DNA of 34,389 bases, taken from contig JAFXOV010000048.1 of NCBI GenBank assembly GCA_017528425.1, positions 1 through 34,389 on the forward strand, given 5' to 3'. Below the pieces are notes generated by a model. That model was not told where the DNA came from. It searched no databases and worked only from the letters and a program-made list of their open reading frames with translations. The DNA comes from Elusimicrobiota bacterium (GTDB lineage: Bacteria; Elusimicrobiota; Endomicrobiia; Endomicrobiales; Endomicrobiaceae). Position numbers and translations under genes: made by a program. Shown in pieces: positions 16,873 to 34,389 of the stretch. Within the stretch, counting starts at the first letter, position 1. Every line of letters starts with the position of its first letter.

Positions 16873-17210
16873 AGTTGTACAAAATAAACCGATGATGCGG
16901 AGATAAAAATAAGAAGAACCCTAACAGCGAGCCTGGGTGGTGAGAAGCAGGCAGGAAGTGTCTTATTAAATGGACCGCAGAGGGTGCAGTCAAAGAGGTG
17001 GTATTTTAACCTTGAGTATTCTGCAACGGGAAAGCAGCCGTTATTTGCTAGGGATATGTTGGTATCCTAAATAAGAGTGAGACTACCTGATAAGATTCTA
17101 AGTGTAAATTTTATCGTTTGTTTGGTGGTTTCAAATCAAGGTGGCACCGCGGATAATATAATTCGTCCTTGAAAACAAAATTTTTTGTTTTAGGATGAAT
17201 TTTTTTTATT
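16873..17210 (+). promoter_or_regulatory. Tryptophan T-box leader (tRNA-Trp-sensing riboswitch)
   Basis: The signature T-box sequence AAGGTGGCACCGCGG is at 17138-17152. Stem I is legible: GCGG (16897-16900) pairs with CCGC (16975-16978), and AATAAGA (16908-16914) pairs with TCTTATT (16961-16967). The internal loop between them holds TGG (16971-16973) followed by A, so the specifier codon is UGG (Trp). A distal GCCTG/CAGGC helix and a stem III (TTATTT...AAATAA around AGGGATA/TATCCT) follow. The bulge TGGC carries C at the position that pairs with the discriminator base, matching G73 of bacterial tRNA-Trp. The antiterminator helix CAAGG (17137-17141)/CCTTG (17167-17171) overlaps the terminator's 5' arm, so the two are mutually exclusive. 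Uncharged tRNA-Trp should allow readthrough into trpE. Confidence 0.95.
17160..17207 (+). terminator. T-box regulated terminator
   Basis: A 10-bp base (17160-17169 with 17192-17201, one G-T pair) extended by AAAACAAAA/TTTGTTTT and followed by a T tract to 17207. It is the off-state of the leader and ends 17 bp before the trpE start codon. Confidence 0.9.
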
Positions 17211-33469: not shown

Positions 33470-33937
33470 ATGAGAAATGTAAAAATCGCAAAAATGATGT
33501 TAAGTTTGATGTTGATGTTTGGACTTACAACCGCAAGTTTTGCAATGGGACCCGGCGATGCAAAAAAAGCACCTAAAGATAACGGTAAAGTAAAAGTTGA
33601 ACAGAAGTATGATAAAAAAGATGTAAAAAAAGATACAAAGAAAGAAACAAATGTTGCAAAAAAAGATCAAAAGAAAAAAGATTTTGCTAAAAAGAACGAT
33701 AAAAAAGAAAAGTTTGCAAAGAAAGGTAAAAAAGGAAAAGAGTTTGCAAAAAAAAGACAAGGTAAAAACGGTAAATATTTCGCAAAGAAAGGACAAAGAG
33801 GAAAATATTTTGCAAAAAAAGGTCACAACAAAAACTTTAAATTCGCAAAGAAAAACGGACATCACAAAAAACATTTTGCAAAAAAAGGTCACAACAGACA
33901 CTTTGCAAAAAAATGCAATAAAAAGTGTAAATGTTAG
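33470..33937 (+). CDS. Secreted lysine-rich protein with eight FAKK repeats
   Basis: The 155-residue protein has a signal peptide of about 26 residues (MLSLMLMFGLTTASFA) and a mature part dominated by lysine. From about residue 64 the tetrapeptide FAKK recurs eight times at 8-14-residue spacing, each preceded by D, K, E, Y or H. Spacers are rich in G, N, Q and, towards the end, H. The last residues are CNKKCKC, with three cysteines. The strong SD AAAGGGGG precedes the ATG. No known family was recognised. The composition would suit binding of nucleic acid, anionic polysaccharide or lipid, or metal; these are inferences. The DNA repeat makes it prone to length variation. Overlapping open frames on both strands are shadows of this repeat. 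Confidence 0.75.
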   Translation: MRNVKIAKMMLSLMLMFGLTTASFAMGPGDAKKAPKDNGKVKVEQKYDKKDVKKDTKKETNVAKKDQKKKDFAKKNDKKEKFAKKGKKGKEFAKKRQGKNGKYFAKKGQRGKYFAKKGHNKNFKFAKKNGHHKKHFAKKGHNRHFAKKCNKKCKC

Positions 33938-33991: not shown

Positions 33992-34020
33992 TTGAAATTC
34001 ATAAAAGTATGGGCTATGCT
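33992..34020 (+). promoter_or_regulatory. Candidate promoter of the last, partial gene
   Basis: TTGAAA (33992-33997), a 17-nt spacer and TATGCT (34015-34020) predict a start near 34027, exactly at the 5' side of the first helix in the leader that follows. Confidence 0.55.
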
Positions 34021-34026
34021 AAATAT

Positions 34027-34149
34027 TACGCGCTGAAACAAAAATAAATTAGGTGAAACTTTTTAAAAAGGAGGTAAGTCTAAAGTTTGTAGCAGCCGTA
34101 AAAAAATGTAGAACTCAGATTCTACAAATCTAAAAAAAGGAGAAGGAAA
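34027..34149 (+). promoter_or_regulatory. Structured 5' leader, unassigned riboswitch-like RNA
   Basis: The 123-nt leader has a closing helix: TTACG (34026-34030) with CGTAA (34097-34101), and CTG (34033-34035) with CAG (34093-34095). Inside are a CTTTT/AAAAG hairpin and an orphan SD AAAGGAGGT (34067-34075) that serves no long frame; the nearest start-like codon, TTG 34087, is followed at once by TAG. A 7-bp hairpin (34107-34113 with 34120-34126) competes with an alternative stem (34117-34121 with 34127-34131) just before the real SD. Some blocks recall c-di-GMP aptamers, but the match is incomplete. Confidence 0.4.
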
Positions 34150-34389
34150 ATGAGAAAGGTAATGAGCTTGTTAGTAGCAACCGTTTTCATGGCAGGAGTA
34201 GCAGCAGTAGCATTCGCAGCACCAAAAGCAGCATCAACATCATCAGCAAAGTCATCATCATCTTTTAAAGCATTTGCAGTATATGTAGAAAATGCTTCAA
34301 AAGATAACCACTTTGCACCATCAGGATGGATGGGAGATTTCGGAGATTTGAAATTGAACCAGGCATGCACAGAAACACCAAGAAGCGGA
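34150..34389 (+). CDS. Secreted protein, 3' truncated by window end
   Basis: Eighty codons are visible from ATG 34150, which is preceded by AAAGGAGAAGG. A signal peptide (1-24, ending AFA) leads into an Ala/Ser/Lys-rich linker, then a globular start containing FAVYVENASKDNHFAPSGWMGDFGDLKL. The SGWMGD-GDLK pattern looks like a conserved motif of secreted hypothetical proteins, but I cannot name the family with confidence. A long structured leader precedes it, so expression may be regulated post-initiation. The frame is still open at the window edge. Confidence 0.75.
   Translation, partial: MRKVMSLLVATVFMAGVAAVAFAAPKAASTSSAKSSSSFKAFAVYVENASKDNHFAPSGWMGDFGDLKLNQACTETPRSG

Follow-up and report, generated by a model that had tools for sequence, protein, structure and literature searches.

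The question raised by this locus is whether the DNA just ahead of a secreted protein gene specifies a structured mRNA leader and, if so, what such a leader might do; the earlier note had proposed an undescribed or degenerate riboswitch. The locus lies at the end of the window (the whole stretch of DNA analysed, 34,389 nt), a single contig from a draft genome; the named organisms closest to this genome are rumen Elusimicrobiota (family Endomicrobiaceae), e.g., Candidatus Ruminimicrobiellum bubulum (for a description of the genus, refer to PMC11257099). The window genome was compared with four others (G001, G003, G006 and G008), giving five species of one Endomicrobiaceae genus (Ruminimicrobiellum-type).

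Locus and predicted fold of the leader

The secreted protein gene (copy A, 34150-34389; this and all features below are on the + strand) is clipped by the contig end. Full-length relatives of its protein have about 208-214 aa, an N-terminal signal peptide and a sub-threshold choice-of-anchor-J-like match. A second copy with a 97% identical start is found at the end of contig C2 of the same genome (L002/L035, G000:C2:75335-75598), behind the 3' end of an OmpA-like reading frame; it is without the leader, since its similarity to the window starts only at ~34126-34134. Near-identical second copies behind an OmpA-like gene occur in the same genomes as the leader copy (L002/L035, L036, L037, L038 and L039). 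The within-genome likeness of the two copies suggests recent duplication or gene conversion, ending at the Shine-Dalgarno sequence (SD) and sparing the leader, and the duplicated copies are probably the cause of the contig breaks. Further paralogues of the family stand in tandem, two to three in a row (L038 and G000:C22:43583-45215). Just upstream of the leader, positions 33470-33937 encode a lysine-rich secreted protein in which FAKKG/HFAKK motifs recur and which has no Pfam match; the end of this gene also lies ahead of the leader in G001, G003 and G006, and was not seen in G008 within the 300 nt that precede the secreted protein gene.

A sigma-70-type promoter, TTGAAA - 17 nt - TATGCT, was located at 33992-34020 by promoter scan and conservation. 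Taken alone its consensus match is no better than chance; it is kept in 5/5 species, with TTGAAATT and the 17-nt spacing identical and a -10 of TATGCT or TATGAT. Because of this promoter the transcript start is predicted at ~34026-34028, at the foot of a helix, in agreement with the coincidence of start and closing helix claimed previously. The promoter-to-helix-foot geometry is common to 5/5 species; with the start taken as 34027, the number of unpaired nucleotides before the stem is 0 in three species and 4-6 in G001 and G008.

From predicted start to gene the leader measures about 125 nt: a long hairpin of three tiers (34026-34102) comes first, then a smaller hairpin, then the A-rich stretch that carries the true SD. 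The basal helix P1 joins a fast-evolving 5' arm at the predicted mRNA 5' end (34026-34043), whose pairing is kept, to a 3' arm at 34085-34101; within it the closing helix of the earlier note (34026-34035 with 34093-34101) was recovered as part of the MFE structure, UUACG-GCUG pairing with CAGC-CGUAA around one bulge. In the consensus fold P2 pairs UUAGGU (34049-34054, with one-sided pair-preserving changes in G003) to GUCUAA (34078-34083), and encloses the invariant P3 hairpin ACUUUUU-AAAA-AGGAGGU (34058-34075; pairs 34058-34064/34069-34075), in which a U-rich 5' strand pairs with the SD-like AAGGAGGT (34068-34075) as 3' strand. Hairpin 2, UGUAGAA-CUCAGA-UUCUACA (34107-34126), has a stem invariant in the five species and a z of -2.9; the true SD (AAGGAGAAGG, 34137-34147, by direct reading) lies in the single-stranded A-rich stretch and is identical in all five. 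For the 77-nt domain the predicted folding energy is -18.2 kcal/mol (z -2.6 vs shuffles), and with hairpin 2 included the 106-nt domain reaches z -3.4 in the window; the five orthologous 77-nt-type domains gave z -2.6 to -4.4 and, with hairpin 2, the three tested gave -3.4 to -4.8. Two competing hairpins had been described before the true SD. The 34107-34126 stem stands, but the competition is not conserved, because G001 and G008 both carry AAATT, which breaks the alternative AGATT/AATCT hairpin (34117-34131).

Conservation and pairing among five species

In all five species the orthologous gene has this promoter, both hairpins and the SD ahead of it. Averaged over species pairs, identity was lowest ahead of the promoter (63% over 60 nt) and in the P1 5' arm (67%, approximately the rate of the flanking DNA), intermediate in the P1 3' arm (85%) and the promoter (87%), and highest in the inner domain (34049-34085; 93%), the A-run with hairpin 2 (93%) and the A-rich SD stretch (100%); third codon positions of the gene, at 87%, fall below both the inner domain and hairpin 2. 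By this comparison the leader element is under purifying selection, and "degenerate" is therefore an unsuitable label for it.

The arms of P1 were then the place where pairing could be followed through sequence change. In the alignment of the five leaders both partners have changed in three P1 pairs; 14/500 shuffles reached this count, and 9/500 the covariation score. Of the alignment cells 93% are paired, falling to 42-53% when the partner is slid by one to three columns. The 3' arms of G001 and G008 diverge from those of the other three species. That of G001 reaches -13.2 when paired to its own 5' arm vs -6.0 to -8.8 with those of the window, G006 and G003, and that of G008 reaches -11.2 with its own vs -2.8 to -5.2 with those of the same three. 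With random 5' arms carrying an equal number of changes, the observed energies were reached in 0-0.2% of trials, and in 3.4% in one comparison. The converse fails: any of the 3' arms is a good partner for the 5' arm of G008, and the 5' arm of G001 pairs with the 3' arms of the other three species about as well as with its own. The pairs of P2, P3 and hairpin 2 hardly vary among the five sequences; those of P3 and hairpin 2 are invariant and give no covariation information, so that these two stems are backed by conservation and energy only. The earlier note had set its proposal against two possible findings, loss of the helices in relatives and absence of a covariance-model match; the helices are conserved, with P1 adding two-sided changes and arm-specific pairing, and the match is absent (see below).

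The conservation could instead reflect shared recent ancestry, or an operator acting at the DNA level, without the RNA having any function; we regard this explanation as quite improbable. It would draw on there being just five related species, on the moderate result of the shuffled-column test, and on a whole-domain MFE null with random substitutions that was not significant by itself (fraction 0.12-0.23); against it, the flanking 60 nt have diverged far more than the inner domain and the A-rich SD stretch, both of which surpass third codon positions in identity, and the P1 arms coevolve in an arm-specific manner. Since the fold is kept in five species with coevolving arms, the leader structure is more than chance, and the sequences support a real, evolutionarily maintained and undescribed structured leader before the secreted protein gene. 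Of the original label, "undescribed" thus holds, for a leader that is structured and conserved; the leader as a riboswitch is unproven, no ligand core, terminator or conserved SD-masking alternative having been found.

Riboswitch and sensor readings

Sequence blocks in the leader had been said to recall parts of the c-di-GMP-I and c-di-GMP-II aptamers, and searches with RF01051 and RF01786 had been suggested. Neither model matched the window at the gathering threshold, nor the five orthologous loci or the leader alone at E<=10, nor any genome of the genus, in a search where the control genomes were silent as well. Other Rfam families gave no credible match to the leaders even at E<=10. The gathering-threshold scan of the window did recover a T-box leader before trpE (16883-17173, RF00230, 93.6 bits, immediately ahead of the trp cluster of aromatic amino acid genes starting at 17195), so the scan works. 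The genome encodes a PilZ protein and GGDEF domains, and judging from the latter the organism probably makes c-di-GMP; this gives no evidence for the RNA. As a structured leader in a GGDEF/PilZ genome it resembles the c-di-GMP-I and -II riboswitches, but its architecture, one extended hairpin, lacks both the helix junction of class I and the pseudoknot that the c-di-GMP-II riboswitch has, and it is conserved rather than degenerate. A degenerate or variant c-di-GMP riboswitch is accordingly a reading to which we attach almost no probability, and it was rejected for want of any match to the two models and for its different architecture.

A broader possibility is a genus-specific cis-regulatory sensor, either a ligand riboswitch or a protein-binding leader, and this we consider rather unlikely. 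The inner domain would be the binding site and P1 a variable closing stem, with binding altering ribosome access or mRNA decay. A near-invariant inner domain within a fast but covarying closing stem is the pattern of many aptamers, and UUUGUAG (34085-34091, P1 3' arm) could pair with CUACAAA (34122-34128, hairpin 2) instead; yet this alternative helix loses one pair in G008, whereas P1 is compensated there. Distribution also counts against a sensor. Metabolite riboswitches usually spread over multiple genes and lineages, but this leader occurs once per genome, in 5/96 class genomes, and only before the secreted protein gene. Model R1 and a 31-nt pattern found in 77 family genomes only the five known loci plus chance-level matches; R1 in the 96 class genomes likewise found the five known loci only, the rest being at chance level (chance matches overall E 0.6-0.8), and an exact 23-nt pattern had no match in viral contigs. 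No terminator follows the leader, and a conserved expression platform (terminator or SD-masking alternative) was not found in the five species, because there is no terminator, the true SD is open in all five and the AGATT/AATCT pairing is broken in two. More specifically still, the leader might belong to an RNA class restricted to this genus of rumen Endomicrobiaceae, its invariant inner domain binding a metabolite or protein and so controlling one of the two near-identical secreted protein gene copies; we hold this to be distinctly doubtful.

Possible ribosome docking, proposed mRNA stabilisation and known leaders

The SD-like sequence within the leader was claimed to serve no gene, and this was borne out. 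AAGGAGGT at 34068-34075 has no other exact copy in the window, where chance would give 0.68, and behind it there is no usable start codon. A leader peptide was weak as a candidate, the only start being a TTG, 11 nt downstream, followed immediately by TAG/TAA. An RNA thermometer was also discarded: AAGGAGGT pairs to a U-run as in FourU elements, yet no gene starts there.

AAGGAGGT in P3 may instead be the active part, a site at which the 30S subunit docks, as a standby site or a STAB-SD-like roadblock, with the stems merely presenting it. This is a serious second reading, because the invariant AAGGAGGT is calculated to bind the anti-SD more strongly than does the true SD (-13.1 vs -8.9 kcal/mol, for an assumed canonical anti-SD at the 16S 3' end); P3 alone contributes only -1.7 kcal/mol, and being SD-like, invariant in five species and not directing translation, AAGGAGGT answers to the definition of a STAB-SD as far as sequence goes. 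A precedent exists in cry3A, where a leader SD that initiates no gene stabilises the mRNA (PMC4113751). We nonetheless judge docking unlikely as the main function: the site comes out as about 80% paired when the leader is folded by prediction and lies ~40 nt inside the leader, not at the very 5' end, and STAB-SD acts against RNase J1, whereas no RNase J above cut-off was found in the genome (only 32 bits in the draft genome vs a cut-off of 400). RNase E/G is present (458 bits, above cut-off), and this pair of results makes the strict STAB-SD mechanism less likely and fits 5'-end protection.

By analogy with known leaders, the present one most likely protects or tunes its mRNA, and we give about even chances to its being a 5' stabiliser of the secreted protein mRNA of the ompA/aprE kind. 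Transcription would start at the foot of the P1-P2-P3 hairpin, leaving the 5' end paired or within a few bases of a stem; the 5'-terminal stem would shield that end from 5'-end-dependent decay, for which RNase E/G would be responsible here, ribosomes would be kept on the mRNA by the open A-rich SD region, and the protected, ribosome-loaded message would be long-lived. Like the transcript start, mRNA stabilisation and high expression are what we infer, each step beyond the structure being conditional; the product is possibly an abundant surface protein. For a stabiliser speak the promoter-helix geometry in 5/5 species, fold z-scores of -2.6 to -4.8, the coevolution of the P1 arms, and a true SD that prediction leaves largely open in each of the five species (unpaired probability about 0.8 on average). 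Counted against it is a start codon predicted to be paired with codons 12-14 (unpaired probability of the AUG, 0.04). In all five orthologues AUGAGAA (start codon and first codons) pairs with UUUUCAU of codons 12-14 (in the window, within 34150-34190), which may be a by-product of the signal-peptide codons or a further translation brake. Protection of the 5' end would be weaker in G001 and G008, if the start is as predicted, because there the stem begins 4-6 nt from the 5' end. Moreover, a generic stabiliser would not need a near-invariant GUGAAACUUUUUAAAAAGGAGGU-AGUCUAAA, so something more specific may bind this inner domain.

If the stabiliser reading is right, a structurally maintained 5' leader is documented in Elusimicrobiota, in which we know of little work on post-transcriptional control, the leader being otherwise an ordinary kind of element. 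A natural experiment would also be at hand within one genome: of two near-identical gene copies, one has the leader and a promoter of its own, and the other stands behind an OmpA-type gene and lacks the leader.

The E. coli ompA leader has a 5' stem, a second hairpin, single-stranded A-rich segments and an open SD. The leader studied here is alike in its similar length, in a stem at the (here predicted) 5' end followed by a second hairpin, in single-stranded A-rich segments with the SD in an open stretch, and in preceding a cell-envelope or secreted protein gene in an RNase E/G organism; it is unlike in that its first hairpin is larger and composite and buries an SD-like sequence. The likeness is one of anatomy, stabilisation here being predicted, and no sequence relation is claimed to ompA or to aprE. 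The B. subtilis aprE leader, reportedly a 5' stem-loop with a strong SD (the title of Hambraeus 2002), likewise precedes a secreted protein, but aprE acts in an RNase J organism. The 5' stem-loop stabilisers of ompA, papA and aprE are cited among the references of PMC3997798, and ompA and other transcripts without start codons remain stable given a strong SD (PMC7509114). With the STAB-SD of cry3A the leader shares an SD-like sequence that starts no gene, the site here lying within a hairpin and away from the 5' end, in a genome where no RNase J scored above cut-off.
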